64,000 bases of DNA. Origin: a virus. Every line of letters begins with the position of its first letter. Positions within the stretch are counted from its first letter, which is position 1. Both the position numbers and the translations under genes were made by a program. The notes beneath the pieces were generated by a model. That model worked only from the letters and a program-made list of their open reading frames with translations. It was not told the origin of the DNA and ran no database searches. The DNA lies in IMG/VR virus record IMGVR_UViG_3300009034_000001, positions 177,415-241,414 of that record; one strand, 5' to 3'. Below are positions 5,064 through 64,000 of the stretch, in pieces.

Positions 5064-5474
5064 CTAGTCTGGAAGAACTTTCATCTCCGTAAAGACAGAA
5101 CAACGAGCAAATTCTGTGCCACCGTTAACTACAGTTGCAATGTCTTGTATACCTGTTGCAACAATATCTCTCACTTCAACCCTTCTTACAGCTAATTTTG
5201 TGAGGTCATCTGTCCAAATCTCAGCATGTAACTTTTTGTGGAAGCCATGGAAGCCGTACGGGTACGTTTCGGAAGTACCATCAGTGTGGATAACTCCTCG
5301 TTTTCGAGATTCTCGACACCTGTAGTCCATTTCCGATACCCACTTCCCAACCGGAACAATCTTGTTAGTATTTCCTTGACAATCAAGAAATAAATTACCT
5401 CGAGTGGTTAACCTAAAGACCTTCCAACAATACTTCCTTCTGGCCTTTCTTATTACTAGTTTATGTAAACACAT
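5064..5474 (-). CDS. family C protein (MCL N-terminus), 136 aa
   Basis: Member of a six-copy dispersed family in this window (also 7378, 10133, 23641, 30589, 31051). Shared landmarks in order: MCL at the extreme N-terminus, WKVF near residue 18, a W-containing WVSEMDY, GFHGFH near residue 80, an R-V-E-V/V-A-T-G block, then a final beta strand EMKVLP. Similar MCL-start proteins occur widely in phages without an assigned function. No catalytic residues are obvious. Confidence 0.8.
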   Translation of the reverse strand: MCLHKLVIRKARRKYCWKVFRLTTRGNLFLDCQGNTNKIVPVGKWVSEMDYRCRESRKRGVIHTDGTSETYPYGFHGFHKKLHAEIWTDDLTKLAVRRVEVRDIVATGIQDIATVVNGGTEFARCSVFTEMKVLPD

Positions 5475-7377: not shown

Positions 7378-7764
7378 TCACTCATTAGTTACCTTTGGCA
7401 AAATCCGAATCTTTTTACAAACGAACACGGACAGGTTATTTGACCTATCAACATACTGCAAACCAAAAGCAACCGCCTTACTTATCTCGACTTTACGAAC
7501 TACCAAACGTCCAAACATTCGCATTCGGTGTTTCCATTTTAAAGCATCTTTCTTGGTATAAAAACAATGCCAACCATTCTCATATGTGCCCTGTTCATAT
7601 CCCAAACTAATACGCTTAGGGCCCTTAGCATTCAGCCAAACGTCTACTGGACGAACGGTGCCACAGCCAAAGTACTCCGACTTCAACTTATCTGCCATTA
7701 CAAAGAAAACTTTATAGCCATACCTCGGTTGATATTCGCTTTTCCTAAGATAATCCAAACACAT
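7378..7764 (-). CDS. family C protein (MCL N-terminus), 128 aa
   Basis: Starts MCLDYLRK, then YGYKVFF, VRPVDVWLNAK, NGWHCFYTKKDA, and a closing block RKVEISKAVAFG...SVFVCKKIRILPK. The KKDA after the aromatic GWHCFY is shared with the copies at 23.9 and 30.6-31.5 kb. Its stop overlaps the next gene by one base. Confidence 0.8.
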   Translation of the reverse strand: MCLDYLRKSEYQPRYGYKVFFVMADKLKSEYFGCGTVRPVDVWLNAKGPKRISLGYEQGTYENGWHCFYTKKDALKWKHRMRMFGRLVVRKVEISKAVAFGLQYVDRSNNLSVFVCKKIRILPKVTNE

Positions 7765-9659: not shown

Positions 9660-10133
9660 CTAATCATATTCTTTCTTTAATACAGCCTCAACTTCAAGCA
9701 TGAAAGTCTCATTGATGTTGTAGTACTTTGTATCAAAAAGATCCAAACCATCAAGATACGAATCGTCATAACACTCCTGATCGGTATCATAACGTTGAAA
9801 TCGACTTGCTTTTTTGTGCTCCTTAAGGATATCTTCAACCCCTTCTAATATCTGAAGTACATCATTGAAGGTTGTTGTTTTACCGTCATAATTTGTTAAA
9901 AACAACTTTATATCATCCAACGCAATACTGTAACCATTATCAAACCACTGCGCGAAACCGCCATTCTCAACCTGATAGTTTAAATTTCCCAAGATTACAG
10001 CATTGTAATGTGCTGGGCTAAACTTTTCGTGTATCTCATCAAGGAATTGACTATAAGAGCAACGACCCTTTTTAGATTTCCAAAAGTCATAGGCCTCATC
10101 CATCAGTTTTTGATGTATATCGCACTTTTCCAT
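9660..10133 (-). CDS. DMP19/DUF4375-like protein, 157 aa
   Basis: Helical acidic protein with the family hallmark NLNYQVENGGFAQWFDNGY (pattern N..NGGF.Q.F.N). DMP19-type proteins mimic DNA charge in some bacteria; in phages the family is of unknown role. Acidic composition agrees. Start ATG overlaps the stop of the family C gene upstream by one base. Confidence 0.65.
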   Translation of the reverse strand: MEKCDIHQKLMDEAYDFWKSKKGRCSYSQFLDEIHEKFSPAHYNAVILGNLNYQVENGGFAQWFDNGYSIALDDIKLFLTNYDGKTTTFNDVLQILEGVEDILKEHKKASRFQRYDTDQECYDDSYLDGLDLFDTKYYNINETFMLEVEAVLKKEYD

Positions 10134-10555
10134 TAATGGATCCTCCTTTCTTTCTTCTTTTGTTCCTCCGGAGGTAATACTCTCATCTCTTTAAACACAG
10201 AAACAGGCACACGACGACGACCGAACATTTCTTGATGTCCGGTTGCCACAATTCGTCTTACCTCCACCAGGCATACAATCTGACCATACCCTTTCCAATC
10301 TTCTGCATCTGACTTAAGGTGGAAACCGTGGAAACCTGTTTTATACAGCTTTTCAGACCGAAGTGAATATATGAAATTATGTTTTCGATTTTTATAGCCT
10401 CTACGATCTTTCTCGTTAATCCAGACACCATACGGAATGGCTCGTTTCCTCACGCCCTTACAATCTGATAACAATCTATTTCTCAATCCCAAAGTGAAAA
10501 CTTTCCAGAAGTATCGTTTCCTTACACGTTTCTTTACAACAATGTCTAAACACAT
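10133..10555 (-). CDS. family C protein (MCL N-terminus), 140 aa
   Basis: MCLDIVVKKRVRKRYFWKVF at the start, WINEKDRRG, GFHGFHLKSDAE and the RRIVATG block; closest by eye to the copy at 5064 (both have KRK/RKY-WKVF and GFHGFH). Ends in a basic extension. First gene of the unit downstream of the promoter at 10625. Confidence 0.8.
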   Translation of the reverse strand: MCLDIVVKKRVRKRYFWKVFTLGLRNRLLSDCKGVRKRAIPYGVWINEKDRRGYKNRKHNFIYSLRSEKLYKTGFHGFHLKSDAEDWKGYGQIVCLVEVRRIVATGHQEMFGRRRVPVSVFKEMRVLPPEEQKKKERRIH

Positions 10556-12688: not shown

Positions 12689-13429
12689 TTACTTTGTCAA
12701 TAAGGCATTCGTTCCAACCTTGACAATTCGGCCACCCTGTTTCTTAAACTCGTTTCGGATGTAAAGTGCGAGTTGATTCCTTACTTTCCTCTTGTCAATC
12801 TTATAACTACTTAGTTGTGAAATCAACTCCTGTGTAAAATCTCGAAGCGCTTTCGTATCTCCGGGGTCCAATGAGTTTATCAACTTTGTAACTTCATCTT
12901 TCACCCAAGAACTCACGTACTCATCCTTCTTACGCATCGAACTCTTTGTACCTTTCATGCGCTTCTTTCCCTCATGATCCCTCACAATGTTGTTAAGTTT
13001 CTGAAGTACCATTTTAGTAACCTCCCGTGTAAGAAATTCCCCTTTATTACGATCCAATTCGGGGTAACCATGAATCCTCGCAAAAGCATTCGCTGATGAC
13101 TCGGTAATAGATTTCTTATTACGTTCAAATGTAATTTTATCCGCTGACCAATCAGCAAAATGACCTAATTCATGTAGAAATACTAAACCTAAATCGTTAA
13201 ATCTAACTGGACAAGGAACGCGCAAAATTATTAATCCATTACAATCAAACATCTCTCCGTACTTAACCAAGATTTGGCTAGGGCTAAATTGGCCAGAACA
13301 TCTAATTGAACGAGCATGTTTCAAATAAACAATCAACCCTTTTTTTGACAACACAACCTTCGAAGATATGTCTCTTAGAAAAAATACAATCAACTCATTT
13401 GGAAACCTGGACTCATTAATAACTTTCAT
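12689..13429 (-). CDS. HExxH metalloprotease fused to recurrent C-terminal domain, 246 aa
   Basis: The N-terminal ~130 residues carry FLHELGHFADW (HELGH, two zinc ligands and the catalytic Glu) and, downstream, ITESSANAFARIHG, whose Glu fits the third ligand: a compact gluzincin-type protease. The last ~75 residues (LRDFTQELISQL...LALYIRNEFKKQGG...VKVGTNALLTK) match the C-terminal domain of three genes at 53.6, 57.7 and 58.3 kb. Substrate unknown; the shared domain may target it to the same complex. ATG start at 13429. Confidence 0.82.
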   Translation of the reverse strand: MKVINESRFPNELIVFFLRDISSKVVLSKKGLIVYLKHARSIRCSGQFSPSQILVKYGEMFDCNGLIILRVPCPVRFNDLGLVFLHELGHFADWSADKITFERNKKSITESSANAFARIHGYPELDRNKGEFLTREVTKMVLQKLNNIVRDHEGKKRMKGTKSSMRKKDEYVSSWVKDEVTKLINSLDPGDTKALRDFTQELISQLSSYKIDKRKVRNQLALYIRNEFKKQGGRIVKVGTNALLTK

Positions 13430-23640: not shown

Positions 23641-24011
23641 CTATCTTGGAATAAAGATTTCATTACATACAAATACACGCAATTTTCGTTGCCAGCCCTT
23701 TGCAATCACCTTTCGTATCTTTACTTTCTTTATTACGGGACTTCGCGGATACGGGAAATGGGAGTAGCCCAACTACGTGCGTCGCGTAAAGTATAAAAAC
23801 AATGCCAGCCATTTTTATACTCCTTTCCGAGCCAATCATGTAAAAATTGTTTGGGTTGTCCCACTGAAAAATCCTTAGCACGCAACCACTTACCTAAAGG
23901 TCGTGTCTTGCAACCGTAGAATTCGCCATACAAGCCATTAGCCGAGTCCACAAAGACTTTATAACCATACTTTGGTCGATACAAAGACGTGTCAAGTTGT
24001 CGAAGACACAT
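23641..24011 (-). pseudogene. family C protein with frameshift
   Basis: Begins MCLRQLDTSLYRPKYGYKVF like other family C copies, through NGWHCFYTLRDARSW, but the frame hits TAA after IREVP (stop at 23733). A -1 change at GTCCCG restores VIKKVKIRKVIAKGWQRK and RVFVCNEIFIPR, the expected family end, stopping at 23641. So the gene is intact except for one missing or extra base. Mutation, sequencing error and programmed frameshifting are all possible; no strong slippery site is evident. Confidence 0.8.
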
Positions 24012-30285: not shown

Positions 30286-30608
30286 GGCGAACCTTGACTC
30301 CTTTGCCCAAGTATTAGAACACCGATAACTTCGCGAACAAACCGGAGATGATCCGCTCGTGTCAGGTACCAATAAGTAGGAAAGGAACCTAGTTCAAAGA
30401 GAGTCTCACCGTCACCCCGTAAATCCACAATACTACAATGTTCCGGAGAGGCGTTGACCAAATGTGTTACTGAGTTCCATGTGTGATGTGGCCACCCGGA
30501 TGACCTATTAAAGCCTCTCTGATAAGACTCAAGTATAATATCAAGAGCACATACCATCTCTGAATATAACATCTTCTGTAACTGTACCTTATTTAACTGT
30601 ATCTGCAA
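30279..30608 (-). CDS. hypothetical protein, 109 aa
   Basis: Start at MQIQLNKVQLQKM overlaps family C by 20 bases. Helical start, middle HTWNSVTHLVNASPEHC. A second frame remains open past the stop (FADLNLERLSLGTGRP), hinting at a possible 3' frameshift, not proven. Confidence 0.62.
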   Translation of the reverse strand: MQIQLNKVQLQKMLYSEMVCALDIILESYQRGFNRSSGWPHHTWNSVTHLVNASPEHCSIVDLRGDGETLFELGSFPTYWYLTRADHLRFVREVIGVLILGQRSQGSPT

Positions 30609-31017
30609 CCTGTTTCTCTATAAAAATCTGTTTACATACAGTAACACTATGACTTTCCATGCCACTAAATGTGCTGAAACATTGATTCCCAACACAAACT
30701 GGTTCTTTTACCCTTACCCTCCAAATCTCGTGATTATGGTCGTATCCAAAACGTCCTTTCTGTTTTAGTCGAGCCTTTACATCCTTCAAACTATGGTAAA
30801 CATGAAAACCTCGAAGATAACACGTACGACCTTCATCTCTTAAGGATATTGTTTCCTTACGAAAATTACCAATGTAATCTTTTTCATGTAACCATTGGTG
30901 TCTAGGCCTAACTTTACTTCTGTTTATAAATTCGCCATAAAGTTTACCGTTTATCCGAGCAAAAACCTTATAACCTTGCTTCACTGGCCGTTTATTTGTC
31001 ACTACAGATAAACACAT
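30589..31017 (-). CDS. family C protein (MCL N-terminus), 142 aa
   Basis: MCLSVVTNKRPVKQGYKVFA, NGKLYGEF, VRPRHQWLHEKDY, GFHVYHSLKDVKARL, VRVKEPVCVGNQ, VTVCKQIFI. Next to its closest relative at 31051. Confidence 0.82.
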   Translation of the reverse strand: MCLSVVTNKRPVKQGYKVFARINGKLYGEFINRSKVRPRHQWLHEKDYIGNFRKETISLRDEGRTCYLRGFHVYHSLKDVKARLKQKGRFGYDHNHEIWRVRVKEPVCVGNQCFSTFSGMESHSVTVCKQIFIEKQVADTVK

Positions 31018-42198: not shown

Positions 42199-42279
42199 TT
42201 TTCCTCCAATCCATTTGTGATTTTCTTTACTGTGGTAGGTTCATAATAATTGTAGGTTAATTTTTTTTAGTTAAATTGA

Positions 42280-42341
42280 TTTTATATAATATACCAATTT
42301 TTAGGTTTAACTTCAAGGGGGACCCTAAAATATTTTTGTAC
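42280..42341 (-). promoter_or_regulatory. repeated leftward promoter, copy 4
   Basis: Minus strand: GTACAAAAATATTTTA, GGGTCCCCC, TTGAAG (complement of 42311-42316), 17-base spacer, TATATT (complement of 42288-42293), then AATTTAACTAAAAAAAATT shared with copy 6. Likely drives the family A arrays. Confidence 0.85.
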
Positions 42342-42484: not shown

Positions 42485-42805
42485 TTACCGGGGGTCACCC
42501 GATACCGAAACTTTCATCCAAACTTCGCCGTTGAAGAGGTCAGAAACAAAATGTCTACCATTGCATTTATTATCAAGATAACATTCAGTAGTCTTCCCGT
42601 CAGAACCCGAAGCCAGAAAGATGTCACTACACATGGTAAATTCTTCCTTGAAGACTTTGTTGCCTCTCCCCCCAGGAACAATATAACGTCTAACCGCAAA
42701 ATCCTTTTTTAGCTTGTGCCTCTCATCATAGAGAACTCTAATCCAACGATTGAATTTAAAATGTTCTCTTTCGTACCTTTCCTTTAATGTAGATTGATCA
42801 CACAT
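42485..42805 (-). CDS. family B protein, copy 1 (106 aa)
   Basis: Seven-member tandem family. Shared plan: MCDQSTLKERYEREH start, W-I-R-V-x-Y-D-E-R-H-K-L-K, an RRYIVPGGRGNKV block, EFTMCSDIFLA, TTECYL, then FVSDLFNGEVWM. Beta-rich, no Cys pairs conserved beyond the N-terminal one. Function unknown. Confidence 0.85.
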   Translation of the reverse strand: MCDQSTLKERYEREHFKFNRWIRVLYDERHKLKKDFAVRRYIVPGGRGNKVFKEEFTMCSDIFLASGSDGKTTECYLDNKCNGRHFVSDLFNGEVWMKVSVSGDPR

Positions 42806-42849
42806 CTTTTGTGTCCTCCTTCTAAATAAGTTTAATCAAACCAAATTAT

Positions 42850-43176
42850 TTAACAATCTGCATCCTCACAAATCCAAACTTCGCCATTAAAGAGAAGACT
42901 AACAAAACCGGTCCGACATGTCATAACGGCATCATGATACAAATAATGCTCGGTTGTCTTCCCGGCGCTCTCAGTCAGAAAAATATCCGAATCCATCCAA
43001 AATTGGTACAAACTGACTTTGTCATTCCCCACGGGAGGGATAACATAACGCCTAACAAACACGCCAGTTTTTAGTTTGTGCCTCTCATCGTAAGGGACTC
43101 TAATCCAACGAGGAACGCATTTATCTTTAATCTGTTCCCTTTCATACCTTTCCTTTAATGTAGATTGATCGCACAT
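42850..43176 (-). CDS. family B protein, copy 2 (108 aa)
   Basis: MCDQSTLKERYEREQIKDK, WIRVPYDERHKLK, QFWMDSDIFLTES, TTEHYLY, FVSLLFNGEVWI. SD GGAGGATACAAAAG. Confidence 0.85.
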   Translation of the reverse strand: MCDQSTLKERYEREQIKDKCVPRWIRVPYDERHKLKTGVFVRRYVIPPVGNDKVSLYQFWMDSDIFLTESAGKTTEHYLYHDAVMTCRTGFVSLLFNGEVWICEDADC

Positions 43177-43206
43177 CTTTTGTATCCTCCCTCTAAATAA
43201 GTTTAA

Positions 43207-43548
43207 TCAAACCTGAGACCAAATACGCATCCAAACTTCGCCACGGAAGAGGTCTCCAACATAACCCCTTTTTCCAATCGATGCTTGTCCAGGCAAAATT
43301 TCATCATGGTACATATAAGCAGTTGTTGTCCTCCCGTTGTAACCCTTTGTAAGAAAAATGTCAGAATCCATCCAAAAGTCATGTACTTCAACATGGTCAC
43401 TCCCAGTAGGGACAAAATAGCGCCTAACCCTAGTACCCGATTTTAGCTTGTGTCGCTCATCAAAGGGAACCAGAACCCAACTAGGAACGCATTTATCTTT
43501 ATTCTGTTCCCTTTCATGTCTTTCCTTTAATGAAAGTTTAATACACAT
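43207..43548 (-). CDS. family B protein, copy 3 (113 aa)
   Basis: MCIKLSLKERHEREQNKDK, WVLVPFDERHKLK, DFWMDSDIFLTKGYNGRTTT, then an inserted GQASIGKRGYVGDLFRG. SD GGAGGTATAAACG. Confidence 0.85.
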   Translation of the reverse strand: MCIKLSLKERHEREQNKDKCVPSWVLVPFDERHKLKSGTRVRRYFVPTGSDHVEVHDFWMDSDIFLTKGYNGRTTTAYMYHDEILPGQASIGKRGYVGDLFRGEVWMRIWSQV

Positions 43549-43592
43549 CGTTTATACCTCCTTTCGGTGGTTAATAAAACCAAGTTATTTAT

Positions 43593-43997
43593 TCAGCAAC
43601 CCGTGAGCACCAAAATCCAAACTTCATCCATAAACAGATCCTGAACAAAACCACTCCGTCCCCCTATATTTTTCGAGTCCTTAACAAAACCCTTCCGTTC
43701 CCCCATCTTACTCGAGGGTACTGGCCCAGGCGGAGGATGATACAAATAACACTCCGTAGTCTTCCCGTTGTAACCCTCCGTCAGAAAAATGTCCGAATCA
43801 AGCCAAAATTCTTGCATGGAGACTTTGCCACTATTTCCCACCTTAACGTAGCGCCTAACAAACATACCAGCTTTTAGCTGGTGTCTCCGTTCAAAGGGAA
43901 CCATAATCCAACGAGGAACGCACGTTTTCTGTTGCTTTTCATATCTTTCCTTTAATGTAACTTTAAAAAAATCAGTAGCTGCTGGAAAATCGAACAT
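43593..43997 (-). CDS. family B protein, copy 4, enlarged (134 aa)
   Basis: MFDFPAATDFFKVTLKERYE: extra N-terminus; WIMVPFERRHQLK, EFWLDSDIFLTEGYNGKTTE; the end contains a short direct repeat (KGFVKDSKNIGG / SGFVQDLF), suggesting slippage. Confidence 0.83.
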   Translation of the reverse strand: MFDFPAATDFFKVTLKERYEKQQKTCVPRWIMVPFERRHQLKAGMFVRRYVKVGNSGKVSMQEFWLDSDIFLTEGYNGKTTECYLYHPPPGPVPSSKMGERKGFVKDSKNIGGRSGFVQDLFMDEVWILVLTGC

Positions 43998-44021
43998 TAC
44001 TTATTCCCCCCTTTCATTACT

Positions 44022-44228
44022 TTAAAAAAGACTGGATATGGCTCTTCTAATATGATAAAGAAAACCTTTATCATTTGGTAGTGTATAAAGCATAAGCCCA
44101 TTTGCAATCTTGCGAACAAAGTACTCTTCGCCTTTATAGTGAAAACAATAACACGTGTTGAGTGCCATATCATCGGTGTTGACTTCTACTACGCCCTGTC
44201 GTATTCCAATCGGCCATTGCGTTTCCAT
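44022..44228 (-). CDS. hypothetical protein, 68 aa
   Basis: METQWPIGIRQGVVEVNTDD, then CYCFHYKGEEYFVRK and a hydrophobic end. SD GGGGGCGGATATAG. Unknown. Confidence 0.66.
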   Translation of the reverse strand: METQWPIGIRQGVVEVNTDDMALNTCYCFHYKGEEYFVRKIANGLMLYTLPNDKGFLYHIRRAISSLF

Positions 44229-44241
44229 CTATATCCGCCCC

Positions 44242-44343
44242 CTATTTAATATGATTTATTACACATTCTACTGTCATAACAGCAGCAAATGCCGTTATGA
44301 CTGAAATAACCACATAATAAAGTATACCCATTAGTTTCTTCAT
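44242..44343 (-). CDS. single-span membrane peptide, 33 aa
   Basis: ATG after GGAGTTTGAA. MKKLMGILYYVVISVITAFA then AVMTVECVI. Unknown. Confidence 0.55.
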   Translation of the reverse strand: MKKLMGILYYVVISVITAFAAVMTVECVINHIK

Positions 44344-44368
44344 TTCAAACTCCGTTGTTTATTCTGAT

Positions 44369-44692
44369 TTACTCAAAAGGGAATACATCTGCCAACAGTG
44401 AACTTACATTCACCACTAAAGACTCTTCCGAGTCAGAACCCTTGTTATATCCCAGCCAGTCACCGCCCCTATCGCTATCCATCCACCACTGACCATCACC
44501 AAGTTCGTTCTCGACTTGTTTTTTCCAACTTTTTAACAATTCTCTTAATTTCTTTTCCATCTTTACCCTCTCTTCATCTTTTTTGGCTTTATCCAAAACA
44601 TCTTTTTGCTTATCATATAATTCCTTGCAACGCTTCTTAAAAGACCTTTTGCCATCTTCCCTCAAAAGGTCTATCAAAGTGATTTCTCCCAT
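44369..44692 (-). CDS. coiled-coil hypothetical protein, 107 aa
   Basis: Heptad-rich acidic/basic centre (KQKDVLDKAKKDEERVKMEK), then GDGQWWMDSDRGGDW, like the WMDSD segment of family B but otherwise different. SD GGAGATGAAATC. Confidence 0.66.
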   Translation of the reverse strand: MGEITLIDLLREDGKRSFKKRCKELYDKQKDVLDKAKKDEERVKMEKKLRELLKSWKKQVENELGDGQWWMDSDRGGDWLGYNKGSDSEESLVVNVSSLLADVFPFE

Positions 44693-44711
44693 GATTTCAT
44701 CTCCTTCTATC

Positions 44712-44945
44712 TTACGTTACAATAAGTCCAAATACGACCGCAATGCTCGCTCCGAACCATGTGCACCACAAATCGTCCCACTCAGGCGTTCCATAACCTA
44801 ACATATCTAACAATTCCTTTGCCACGCCAAATGCGAATCCGGCAAAATAAAGTGGCGACCATGCCATTCCTAACAAAGATAGCATACAACCCACTATAAG
44901 ATGCGCTATTTTATCTCTTCTCAATGTAATATCCCAATGACCCAT
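44712..44945 (-). CDS. DUF2279/YfiM-like membrane protein, 77 aa
   Basis: DKIAHLIVGCMLSLLG, then FGVAKELLDMLGYG and WDDLWCTWFGASIAV: the D-K-x-x-H...G-x-x-K-E-x-x-D pattern of YfiM-like small integral membrane proteins. Two spans. SD GGGGG. Confidence 0.66.
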   Translation of the reverse strand: MGHWDITLRRDKIAHLIVGCMLSLLGMAWSPLYFAGFAFGVAKELLDMLGYGTPEWDDLWCTWFGASIAVVFGLIVT

Positions 44946-45028
44946 ATAAAATCCCCCATATTTTTTTTGCCCGTCCCAAATTAAATAATACAGTTAAAGA
45001 TATGTCGTTTACCTCCTTTTCGTACTCC

Positions 45029-45173
45029 GAGGGAATCAAACCCTCATCCGCTATTGTCATACTAGGGCTCACGGCTACTAGAAACATCATGAGTCATTAC
45101 ACGACACAGCACAATGTTACCGTGAGCCCGGCACCCCCTCGATCTCCGCCTTTCCGCAGATGCCGCAAGGCGG
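45029..45173 (-). other. GC-rich candidate structured RNA
   Basis: Within a 299-base gap without a firm gene. On the minus strand: a 7-bp stem CCGCCTT/AAGGCGG, a 10-bp perfect stem GGGCTCACGG/CCGTGAGCCC (45120-45129 with 45065-45074), and a T-arm-like GAGGG-TTTGATT-CCCTC. No complementary acceptor strand is found, so it is not a tRNA. Markedly more GC-rich than its flanks. Confidence 0.5.
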
Positions 45174-45215
45174 AAGCCTACTCAAACACAGATATAGCTG
45201 ACACGGCCAGTCCAA
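45117..45215 (-). CDS. possible small CGICG-type zinc protein or remnant, 32 aa
   Basis: TTG start 9 bases after GGAGG. Reads LPPCGICGKAEIEGVPGSR then TAA; past the stop the frame continues HCAVSCND, recalling the second Cys pair of Lar-like restriction-alleviation zinc proteins. Overlaps the structured RNA candidate. Either a broken gene or a chance frame. Confidence 0.3.
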   Translation of the reverse strand: MDWPCQLYLCLSRLPPCGICGKAEIEGVPGSR

Positions 45216-45244
45216 ATTCAAACACCTCCATATAAACCGCACTG

Positions 45245-45562
45245 CTACTCGTACACGTACATCATCCATACTTCGCAGTTAAAGAGGTCACTAACATAAT
45301 ACTTGGTGACATCACCTTTTCGGTTATAACATTCTTCAGTTACCGAGTTATAGTTTGGAGCCAAATAGATGTCAGTACCCATAGTAAATTCTTTCATATA
45401 GACACAAGTACTTCCTGCTGTAAGGATAAAAGCTCTGACTACCTTATCCTTCTTCAATACATGTCTTTGGTCATAAGGCACATGACACCAACGGTCATAG
45501 TGTGGTACCTGCTCTCTGAGCCATCGATCTCTTAAACATGGTTTATCATCCATTTCTTTCAC
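45245..45562 (-). CDS. family B protein, copy 5 (105 aa)
   Basis: MKEMDDKPCLRDRWLREQ, then WCHVPYDQRHVLKKDKVV and YMKEFTMGTDIYLAPNY, VSDLFNCEVWMM. Confidence 0.85.
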   Translation of the reverse strand: MKEMDDKPCLRDRWLREQVPHYDRWCHVPYDQRHVLKKDKVVRAFILTAGSTCVYMKEFTMGTDIYLAPNYNSVTEECYNRKGDVTKYYVSDLFNCEVWMMYVYE

Positions 45563-45586
45563 CTCTTTTAAATATACTCCGTACTG

Positions 45587-45892
45587 TTACGCGTACATCC
45601 GCCATACCTCTCCGTTAAAAAGGTCACTAACAAAATATTCGATATCACAACCTCTTTTCTTATAACATTCCGTAGTTAACTTGGAAAAGCCTCCTGACGA
45701 TAAATAGATGTCAGTACCCATAGTAAATTCTTCCATGTGAACACAATCTCTTCCAAATGGAACGGCATAACATCTAATCCTAATGCCCTTCTTTAATAAA
45801 TGTCTCTGGTCGTGACGCACTTGAGTCCAATAACAATCGACAGGTGACTGTTCCTTCATGTATCTATCTCTTAAAGTAGGTTCGCCGCACAA
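45587..45892 (-). CDS. family B protein, copy 6 (101 aa)
   Basis: MCGEPTLRDRYMKEQ, HDQRHLLKKGIRIR, EEFTMGTDIYLSSGG, TTECYKKRG, FVSDLFNGEVWRM. Closest to copies 5 and 7. Confidence 0.85.
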   Translation of the reverse strand: MCGEPTLRDRYMKEQSPVDCYWTQVRHDQRHLLKKGIRIRCYAVPFGRDCVHMEEFTMGTDIYLSSGGFSKLTTECYKKRGCDIEYFVSDLFNGEVWRMYA

Positions 45893-45916
45893 TTTCTTTC
45901 ACCTCCTTTATTCTCA

Positions 45917-46222
45917 CTAAATATCTTTACTTTTTATCCACACCTCTCCGTTAAACAGATCACTAACAAAGCGTACGTCACTGTAGCCGTATTCCCTATA
46001 GTATTGAATGGTTTTTAAGTTAGTGCCCTTTCCCAAATAGATATCTGTGGCCATAGTGAATTCTTCCACGATGACTTCTTGAGTTCCAATTGGTATAATG
46101 TAACGCCTTACCCTAGTGCCACTCTTTAATAAATGTCTTTTGTTATAGGGTACACATTTCCAGTTGTCATTATCGTATGTCTCCCTGAGATGCCGATCCC
46201 TTAAACAAGGTTTGTCACACAT
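45917..46222 (-). CDS. family B protein, copy 7 (101 aa)
   Basis: MCDKPCLRDRHLRETYDNDN, WKCVPYNKRHLLKSG, EEFTMATDIYLGKG, FVSDLFNGEVWIKS. SD GGGGTGAAAAGAT. Confidence 0.85.
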   Translation of the reverse strand: MCDKPCLRDRHLRETYDNDNWKCVPYNKRHLLKSGTRVRRYIIPIGTQEVIVEEFTMATDIYLGKGTNLKTIQYYREYGYSDVRFVSDLFNGEVWIKSKDI

Positions 46223-46273: not shown

Positions 46274-46343
46274 ATACCGGAACACCCGCCACCGTATCGG
46301 CGCGCCACGGCATTTAACCGCCGAATAACAAGTGTTCCGGTAT
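46274..46343 (-). other. 12-bp inverted repeat enclosing interleaved pairs
   Basis: ATACCGGAACAC (46332-46343 side) and GTGTTCCGGTAT (46274-46285) pair perfectly. Inside, TCGGCG/CGCCGA and CCGT/ACGG alternate, allowing a pseudoknot or a choice of two hairpins. It lies just 3' of a membrane-protein gene whose C-terminal codons are duplicated into the repeat. Confidence 0.5.
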
Positions 46344-46351
46344 ATCTTTCT

Positions 46352-46516
46352 TTAACCAAATAATGGATGTTCCGATATATCTTTCTTTTCGCCGTCCCCA
46401 ATGGTTCCTACGGATCCCCAAAATATCTTACCCGCAAGGTGAAAACCCAACCCAAATGCAAACCCAAGTACCACGGTAAGTCCAAACAAAACCGCCAATT
46501 CATGTACATCAAACAT
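46352..46516 (-). CDS. single-span membrane protein, 54 aa
   Basis: ATG after GGAGGGTAAAG. Hydrophobic AVLFGLTVVLGFAFGLGFHL; ends KKDISEHPLFG. A copy of that coding end (KKDIPEHLLFGG) follows after the stop, a recent tandem duplication. Confidence 0.65.
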   Translation of the reverse strand: MFDVHELAVLFGLTVVLGFAFGLGFHLAGKIFWGSVGTIGDGEKKDISEHPLFG

Positions 46517-53588: not shown

Positions 53589-53930
53589 TTACTTCGTCAA
53601 GTAAGCACGGTTACCCACGCGGATTATCTGGCCGCCGTCGATCTTCTTGTACTCATTCCGGATGTACAGCACGATTTGGTTTGTGAACTTCTTCAGGTCA
53701 CCTACCTCGGCTGTGTCCAATGTTGCTACCACCTCATCGGCAAAGTCTCTCAGCTGCACGGCATCGCCATCTTCCATCCGATTCCACAGAGCCTTTACTT
53801 CGGCCCTGACCTTTGTGGAAGTACAATTCTCGAAGTTTCTCTTGGAACCGTTTTTGGATTCGCGGGCCTCAACCTGCTCTTCGTGATCCTTGACAACCTC
53901 GTCCAATTTTTTGAATCCGTTCTCTGCCAT
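53589..53930 (-). CDS. YIRNE-domain protein, copy 1 (113 aa)
   Basis: ATG after GGAGGTGATACAAG. Start MAENGFKKLDEVVKDHEEQV (shared motif KLDxVxxxHE), then the domain with AVQLRDFADEVVATL and LYIRNEYKKIDGG...IIRVGNRAYLTK also found at 12689, 57678 and 58274. Basic/helical; function unknown, high expression suggested by strong SD and hairpin. Confidence 0.8.
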   Translation of the reverse strand: MAENGFKKLDEVVKDHEEQVEARESKNGSKRNFENCTSTKVRAEVKALWNRMEDGDAVQLRDFADEVVATLDTAEVGDLKKFTNQIVLYIRNEYKKIDGGQIIRVGNRAYLTK

Positions 53931-54190: not shown

Positions 54191-54223
54191 CTTTAATCAC
54201 CCCCCACAAGTTAATGTTTTATT

Positions 54224-54289
54224 TTTATATAATAAATATAATTATCACCACGGCCGAACCTCAAGCGGGACCAAAATATATTTTTGTAC
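54224..54289 (-). promoter_or_regulatory. repeated leftward promoter, copy 5
   Basis: Minus strand: GTACAAAAATATATTTT, GGTCCCGC, TTGAGG (complement of 54259-54264), 18-base spacer, TATATT (complement of 54235-54240). Drives the 53-54 kb genes. Confidence 0.85.
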
Positions 54290-57677: not shown

Positions 57678-58148
57678 CTAGACCGATAAGTACGCACGTG
57701 CACCAACACGCGTGATTGTTCCGCTCAAGCGATTCCACTCATTGCGAACGTACAGGGTCAGACGATCCTTAGTCTTCTTCTCATCCAAGCCACTTGTTCC
57801 CAGTTGGTCATAGAGCGTTCCAACAAACTCGCGCAACTGGATTGTGTCACCAGCACCCATCTCAGACATCAGATTTCTAACTTCAGTCCGTATCCATGTT
57901 GAAACCGCGAACTCATTAGCCTGACCGTTCGAACTAGTTTCGGCATGAGCCTTTTTCTCCTCGTGCTCAACGATTACGTCTTCTAGTTTCCTAAACATTG
58001 ATATCACCTCCTTTTTCCCCCACACCTTGGTGGGTATATTTTTTTCCTCATAACACTGTCCAATCTTTTTGTAAGGACAGTTGGGACACCCACACCGATC
58101 CACTCGCCCGTACCTCTCAAAAATCTCTTCCTCGTACCTACAACCCAT
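57678..58148 (-). CDS. YIRNE-domain protein, copy 2, with N-terminal Cys region (156 aa; 106 aa from internal start)
   Basis: Two plausible starts: 58148 (after GGGGAAGGA) adds a Cys-rich RCGCPNCPYKKIGQCYEE; 57998 (after GGAGGTGATATCA) yields MFRKLEDVIVEHEEKK, the standard start. Both are in frame, so a long and a short form may be made. C-terminal TIQLREFVGTLYDQLG and LYVRNEWNRLSG...RVGARAYLS. Confidence 0.78.
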   Translation of the reverse strand: MGCRYEEEIFERYGRVDRCGCPNCPYKKIGQCYEEKNIPTKVWGKKEVISMFRKLEDVIVEHEEKKAHAETSSNGQANEFAVSTWIRTEVRNLMSEMGAGDTIQLREFVGTLYDQLGTSGLDEKKTKDRLTLYVRNEWNRLSGTITRVGARAYLSV

Positions 58149-58273: not shown

Positions 58274-58726
58274 TTAAATTGTCAAAAAGGCTCTGGAACC
58301 TACCCTGACAATCCTTCCACCCATGTCCTTCCAACAATTCCTTATATAGAGGACCATCCTGTCGTCCAATTTCTTTCTTGGAATTGTTGTTGAACCTTCC
58401 ACCTGGTCCGTGAGTCCTGAGCTAAAATCCCTCAATTTAATACACTCACCTTCCACCAGGTTTCCTAAAAGTACCTTACACTCATTCCGGACCCAAGTAC
58501 TAACATATTCACTTTGGTCCTTGGTCGTGCCATTTCCCTGGACAACCTTTTTGTCCTCATACTCCCGGACAACGTCGTCCAATTTTTTAAATGTGTTTTC
58601 CATAGTCCCGTCCTCCTTTTTATTTGGATTTTGGTGTCCCTGCAATAAGTTTTCCATGTCCCCTCCTTTTTCGGGCCCGTTTATATTTTTTTGTCCGGAC
58701 CCAATTTTTTTATTCCACCTTAACAT
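58274..58726 (-). CDS. YIRNE-domain protein, copy 3, nested starts (150 aa)
   Basis: Three in-frame starts each have an SD: 58726 (AAGGAAGG), 58657 (GGAGGGGAC, MENLLQGHQ) and 58603 (GGAGGACGGGACT, MENTFKKLDD). The repeat MEN plus SD looks like a tandem duplication of a start region. Domain: IKLRDFSSGLTDQV and LYIRNCWKDMGG...RVGSRAFLT. Confidence 0.78.
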   Translation of the reverse strand: MLRWNKKIGSGQKNINGPEKGGDMENLLQGHQNPNKKEDGTMENTFKKLDDVVREYEDKKVVQGNGTTKDQSEYVSTWVRNECKVLLGNLVEGECIKLRDFSSGLTDQVEGSTTIPRKKLDDRMVLYIRNCWKDMGGRIVRVGSRAFLTI

Positions 58727-63436: not shown

Positions 63437-64000
63437 TTAAGTGGCTATCAGTTTTTTGAACCCCTCTTCGTTTAATATCTTGACACCCAGTGTCTTTGCC
63501 TTCTCAAGCTTGGATCCAGCTTCTTTACCTACCACTACGAAATCGGTCTTACGACTAACCGAAGAACCAACCAAACCTCCCAACCCCTGAACTATACGTC
63601 TGGCCTCGTCTCTGGTAAAAGACTCTTGTTTACCGGTAAACACAAAAGTTTTGCCCAAAAGTGCAGATTTAATAGCCACTACTTTCTTTTCCTTAACAAT
63701 CTCCACGCCTGCTTTAAGTATCCTTTCTATGATATTTAAGTTGTTCTTATCTTTAAAAAATCCCACTACACTCTTGGCAACCTCTGGTCCTATCTCTTCA
63801 ATGGTCATAAGTTCCTCTTCTCCTGCCCTAAGTGCCTTTATACCCGCGAAATTATCTGCCAATACTTGGGCCACATGCCCGCCCACATGGCGGATTCCCA
63901 GAGCATATAAAAACCTGCCTAAGGTGGTCTTTTTGCTCCTTTCGATGGCCTCCATGATGTTTTGGGCAGACTTCTCAGCCATGCGCTCTAGATTGGCCAG
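63437..64000 (-). CDS. ligA: NAD-dependent DNA ligase, C-terminal part
   Basis: Only the last ~187 residues lie inside the window. EKSAQNIMEAIERSKKTTLG and the adjacent helix-hairpin-helix units (ALGIRHVGGHVA, TIEEIGPEVAKSV), then a BRCT domain GKTFVFTGKQESFTRDEARR. Together these are the HhH and BRCT C-terminal domains of bacterial LigA, which seals nicks using NAD. Adenylation and OB domains are outside. Confidence 0.92.
   Translation of the reverse strand: MANLERMAEKSAQNIMEAIERSKKTTLGRFLYALGIRHVGGHVAQVLADNFAGIKALRAGEEELMTIEEIGPEVAKSVVGFFKDKNNLNIIERILKAGVEIVKEKKVVAIKSALLGKTFVFTGKQESFTRDEARRIVQGLGGLVGSSVSRKTDFVVVGKEAGSKLEKAKTLGVKILNEEGFKKLIAT

Follow-up and report, generated by a model that had tools for sequence, protein, structure and literature searches.

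An array of seven old paralogues encoding small, predicted SH3-like proteins in the genome of a large tailed phage

Introduction

What seven small, related genes in tandem do for the phage that carries them, and how such an array came about, are the questions raised by one locus in the virus record IMGVR_UViG_3300009034_000001. The record is 241,415 bases long, and the locus lies in the 64-kb stretch that was analysed here (bases 177415-241414), which is referred to as the window. Expanded families of small orphan proteins are a main source of unexplained genes in large-phage genomes, and seven paralogues whose constant core and variable surfaces can be mapped offer a direct test of whether one scaffold is diversified by phages against many host targets.

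Results and Discussion

The phage and its relatives

The record encodes a fusion of DNA polymerase A with a uracil-DNA-glycosylase domain, a terminase-like protein with many phage matches, each of them weak, a 2150-aa protein of tape-measure size and a sigma-70-type factor, and the virus is therefore a large tailed phage. Its relatives were sought with the proteins of two other expanded families described below (family A and the MCL family), the sigma factor, the terminase-like protein and a 376-aa protein (L013:5221-6351) that looks RecA-like by eye. The sole other record found with these queries was IMGVR_UViG_3300009034_000002, which is 99.99-100% identical and is the same virus, but is truncated and stops before the region of interest; no near kin of the phage was found in the collections searched beyond this record.

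An NAD-dependent DNA ligase-like gene is split by the record ends (L008:1-1498 and window 63437-64000). A gene cut in this way points to a genome that is probably circular or circularly permuted; as its two parts are out of frame when joined directly, a few bases are probably lost or duplicated at the ends of the record. Outside the window the phage also carries an MttB-like methyltransferase gene adjoining a glutamine amidotransferase gene (L008:6583-8515), a LonB-like protease (L014:7914-10343), a transketolase split over two neighbouring genes (L014:13041-14823) and a homologue of ornithine cyclodeaminase (L016:10219-11208).

Seven complete genes form one family

A preliminary description of this DNA, made from the sequence alone, placed seven open reading frames here in blocks of four and three with unrelated genes between them. 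All seven are present at the low ends given in Table 1, the two blocks and the unrelated genes are as described, and all seven frames lie on the minus strand, which had been left unsaid. They are complete genes of 101-134 codons spanning 42485-46222 (family B), and the neighbouring frames that look like genes share their strand in a region where short genes predominate on a single strand. Each of the seven is preceded by a good Shine-Dalgarno sequence. For copy 5 the ATG at 45553, which follows AGAGGTGAAAGAA, is a better start than the GTG at 45562, which is less likely, and for copy 6 the better start is the TTG at 45892.

Table 1. Positions in the window of the family B genes, the genes between the blocks, promoter-like elements and members of other expanded families (SD, Shine-Dalgarno sequence)
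Feature	Position	Strand	Remarks
Family B copy 1	42485..42805	minus	106 aa; SD AGAAGGAGGACACAAAAG-ATG; last in transcription order
Family B copy 2	42850..43176	minus	108 aa; SD AGAGGGAGGATACAAAAG-ATG; AlphaFold2 mean pLDDT 84.9
Family B copy 3	43207..43548	minus	113 aa; SD AAAGGAGGTATAAACG-ATG
Family B copy 4	43593..43997	minus	134 aa; extended by 8 aa at the N-terminus; contains the tandem repeat listed next
Tandem 39-nt (13-codon) repeat in copy 4	43639-43677 and 43678-43716	minus	units 79% identical
Unrelated gene between blocks	44022-44228	minus	68 aa
Unrelated gene between blocks	44369-44692	minus	107 aa; charged, probably helical
Unrelated gene between blocks	44712-44945	minus	77 aa; weak VanZ-like match, below cut-off
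Family B copy 5	45245..45553	minus	102 aa; ATG start
Family B copy 6	45587..45892	minus	101 aa; TTG start after AAAGGAGGTGAAAGAAA
Family B copy 7	45917..46222	minus	101 aa; first in transcription order; AlphaFold2 mean pLDDT 82.7
Promoter-like element	42273..42341	minus	directly downstream of array; -35 CTTGAAG, -10 TATATTAT, A/T-rich upstream element
Promoter-like element	54206..54289	minus	nearest copy upstream of array
MCL family	5064-5474, 7378-7764, 10133-10555, 23733-24011, 30589-31017, 31051-31494		
Proteins with ~80-aa module	12689-13429, 53589-53930, 57678-58148, 58274-58657; outside window, L016:14966-15508		

That the seven genes are homologous can be seen from a BLAST search of the genome with copy 2, which matched the other six with E values from 1.5e-36 to 1.9e-13. 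A family HMM run against the 5,228 stop-to-stop frames of the whole record recovered exactly seven members, and the next frame scored an E value of 0.44. Pairwise protein identity is 37-59%, and 23 alignment positions are invariant.

The shared motifs proposed earlier are real, although some are looser than they were written. The pattern [KR][ED]RxxxE is present in six copies and missing from copy 4, which reads KERYEKQ; [WT]M[DGA][ST]DI[FY]L does not fit copy 1 (TMCSDIFL) or copy 4 (WLDSDIFL); and VSDLFNGEVW is exact only in copies 1, 6 and 7. The lengthening of copy 4 by an internal repeat was borne out, as its two units lie head to tail, and they fall in the variable last hairpin, which is thereby enlarged.

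A search for RNA families near the array found none. The gene that lies upstream of copy 7 ends within a 33-nt direct repeat (82% identity, spacing 35; 46321-46388), which spans its stop codon and duplicates its end beyond the stop.

Predicted fold and possible binding of nucleic acid

Copies 2 and 7 were modelled with AlphaFold2 from the seven sequences only (mean pLDDT in Table 1). The order of elements is identical in both models: a helix, a short strand, a helix, strands and then a strand-short helix-strand unit. An SH3-like barrel is expected to have five to six short strands and a short helix ahead of the final one, and both models follow this order. This last unit is VSDLFNGEVW, and its arrangement in both models is SH3-barrel-like, in keeping with the beta-rich character first assigned to the family. 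In structure comparisons with VIA-align, SH3-like, Tudor, chromo-barrel, bL19 and CarD barrels dominate the rows, together with the TraI translocation-signal domain. Copy 2 superposes over approximately 57-77 residues at roughly 2.4-3.3 Å and copy 7 somewhat worse; the best Z is 6.9 for copy 2 (77 residues at 3.0 Å) and 5.0 for copy 7, and values of 5-7 are background that is usual for unrelated small barrels. As such values are usual without true kinship, the claim is limited to the fold class, and the assignment to the small SH3-like beta-barrels is moderately supported by the models. Foldseek, run with copy 2 against viral models and with copies 2 and 7 against the PDB, returned nothing at E <= 0.001 (E above 0.01). 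No family of solved structure is assigned, and the lack of a strong match among the VIA-align rows excludes none.

The SH3-like barrels (Tudor/chromo-barrel, bL19, CarD/KOW) and the TraI domain are like family B in predicted strand order and size, and in the short helix predicted to precede the last strand. They differ from it in that identity is at most ~18%, there is no sequence-profile match and Z is below 8, and at best the two would belong to the same fold class.

One reading of such a fold is that the family B proteins bind DNA or RNA. The barrel prediction itself and the bL19, CarD and Tudor rows of the structure comparison speak for it, as do the conserved basic residues R10, R32, H33, K36 and R42. 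There is also a precedent in MotB of phage T4, an early protein for which an SH3-like KOW domain is predicted; it binds DNA and changes the binding of H-NS (PMC7827196). MotB resembles family B in being a small accessory phage protein with a predicted SH3-like barrel, encoded in a non-essential region (PMC7827196). Unlike family B, for which a single domain is predicted, MotB contains an OB domain as well and is active in DNA binding. Net charge is not consistently positive among the copies (-2.3 for copy 2, -1.3 for copy 5), and none of the seven matches any Pfam family, KOW included, at E <= 1. On balance a MotB-like role is rather unlikely, although it fares better than the other alternatives considered here.

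Age of the copies and constraint upon them

The split between copies 1-4 and copies 5-7 was recovered in 100 of 100 bootstraps (FastTree). Synonymous differences amount to 0.45-0.56 per site in the closer pairs within blocks and to 0.73-0.94 between blocks, which is near saturation; for copy 7, saturation extends to its comparisons with copies 5 and 6. dN/dS is 0.38-0.71 in the unsaturated pairs within blocks, and no unsaturated pair has a dN as high as its dS. Because each block is a clade of its own and the two are nearly saturated at synonymous sites, the copies are old, selectively kept paralogues and not a recent amplification. The same near-saturation and the 100/100 split therefore argue for two old lineages, each of which was duplicated further in place. 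Tandem duplication thus first gave two lineages, represented by the blocks of three and four, and then the copies within each block. Repeated duplication in situ, as originally suggested, is supported by the two clades and by copies 1 and 2, which are alike beyond the coding sequence, in a leader and ribosome-binding site of 88 nt at 92%.

Gene conversion among the copies was considered and is not claimed; a synonymous gradient was seen in one of seven pairs (copies 3 and 4, p 0.001), and the rest were not significant.

Constraint is unevenly distributed along the protein. In the N-terminal helix, the VPYDERHKLK helix, the core and VSDLFNGEVW, pN/pS is 0.39-0.59, and it reaches 0.97 in the loop at 47-58, 0.85 in the hairpin at 79-90 and 1.01 in the C-terminal tail. 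The regional value is never above approximately 1, in a set of seven sequences that is too small for a selection test, and relaxed constraint accounts for the pattern as well as diversification does.

The age of the copies bears directly on a second alternative, that all of them share one job and the array serves to raise the amount of protein. The head-to-tail tandem layout with a separate ribosome-binding site for each copy fits this, and T4 can evolve resistance to a defence system when the segment that carries an inhibitor gene is amplified (PMC9391042). That gene, tifA, encodes the inhibitor of ToxN and is amplified to overcome it, and like family B it is a small accessory phage gene found in tandem copies (PMC9391042). 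The tifA copies, however, arose recently, by segmental amplification during selection in the laboratory, whereas those of family B are old and diverged. Near-identical copies are expected in a pure dosage array, and the observed 37-59% identity, the near-saturated synonymous sites between blocks and the pI range of 5.9-9.2 fit this poorly. Dosage is accordingly an improbable explanation.

Transcription and position in the genome

A promoter-like element of 65-85 nt, with an A/T-rich upstream part, CTTGA[GA]GT and TATATTAT or a close variant, occurs in six copies on the minus strand of the window (10684, 18500, 22488, 42341, 54289 and 55749) and only in this region; a weak seventh copy is found just outside the window, at record position 176267. 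The nearest element upstream lies ~8 kb before the first family B gene and therefore none directly fronts the array. Judging from the uniform strand, which suggests an operon, the element at 54289 is the probable start of a transcript that would reach the array. As the element resembles a sigma-70 promoter, early transcription by the host polymerase is plausible.

Small beta-barrels are common in virions, and the internal proteins that some phages package form paralogous families. Family B could by this precedent encode accessory proteins of the virion or its assembly, either as decoration or as injected internal proteins. The array, however, stands in an accessory region of short genes among promoter elements restricted to that region, with ~116 kb of the record between it and the terminase-like gene and ~170 kb between it and the gene for the 2150-aa protein of tape-measure size (both less if the genome is circular), and a virion role is very improbable. 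The region is also distant from the DNA polymerase gene. Least credible of all is that the genes are functionless by-products of duplication under relaxed constraint and awaiting loss, for although loops and tails change at close to the neutral rate and duplicated small genes abound in the region, all seven frames are open and have a ribosome-binding site, dN is below dS, and 23 positions are invariant despite near-saturated divergence.

Search for relatives of the family

A database match that would identify the family was sought in several collections and was not found. Family B had no match beyond chance in NCBIfam or in 50,697 phage records, and no match among the PADLOC defence-system profiles, PDB sequences or plasmid genomes. 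Scans of IMG/VR and GTDB contigs gave no relative; these were motif-based, and distant relatives can be missed by them. In PHROGs no profile was common to several members, and there were isolated weak matches only (best E 0.0035). That best match, to PHROG 23823, involved one copy and is at chance level after seven queries. Matches to Salmonella jumbo phages (E 0.1-0.4) spanned two different ORFs over 48 residues and were also set aside as chance.

The orphan status of family B thus holds for the collections searched, among which no relative of any of the seven appeared. The family may be absent from other lineages, although no phage related to this one was among those collections. Family B is new to these collections, but large phages are already known to carry expanded families of small orphan proteins. 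In the library of papers that was searched, nothing directly relevant was found on similar phage arrays.

Proposed role

The reading that we favour, with a probability of roughly 0.4, is that the family B proteins are lineage-specific small barrels that bind different partners in host takeover or counter-defence. They would be small soluble proteins of a large tailed phage, encoded in an accessory region that is probably transcribed early, and each is predicted to begin with a short helix and to continue as a small SH3-like beta-barrel. What stays constant would be the core of the barrel together with the VPYDERHKLK helix; the loop between beta1 and beta2, the final hairpin and the C-terminal tail would vary. 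Through this common scaffold each copy may bind a different partner, which could be a host protein, a nucleic acid or a defence component, and such binding would serve takeover of the host or evasion of its defences. The stricter form of this proposal, in which one barrel presents seven variable surfaces, each for a different host or defence target, is doubtful. If it were true, family B, the 21 copies of family A and the smaller sets would together give the phage a repertoire that could be compared with the multigene families of viruses.

Other expanded families in the region

Family B is probably one of several expanded accessory families used against the host. The same region holds others with 21, 6 and 5 members. 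The largest, family A, comprises 21 paralogues of ~105 aa on the minus strand at 19250-41759, with five invariant cysteines and a C-terminal NKPALRAL block; no member has a PHROG match, and the one member tested has no Pfam match. It is like family B in its tandem expansion, in forming an adjacent array and in its strand, but kinship between the two was rejected (hhalign probability 0.1%).

The MCL family consists of six proteins that start with MCL and contain G[FW]H.[FY], and its genes are scattered singly apart from one pair; two members tested had no Pfam match. Kinship to family B, considered for the common 'MC' start, was likewise rejected at a profile-comparison probability of 0.1%.

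A C-terminal module of ~80 aa, LRDF...LYIRNEWKK.GG.IVRVG.RAYLT, is shared by five proteins, and in the one encoded at 12689 it is joined to a HELGH metalloprotease-like part.
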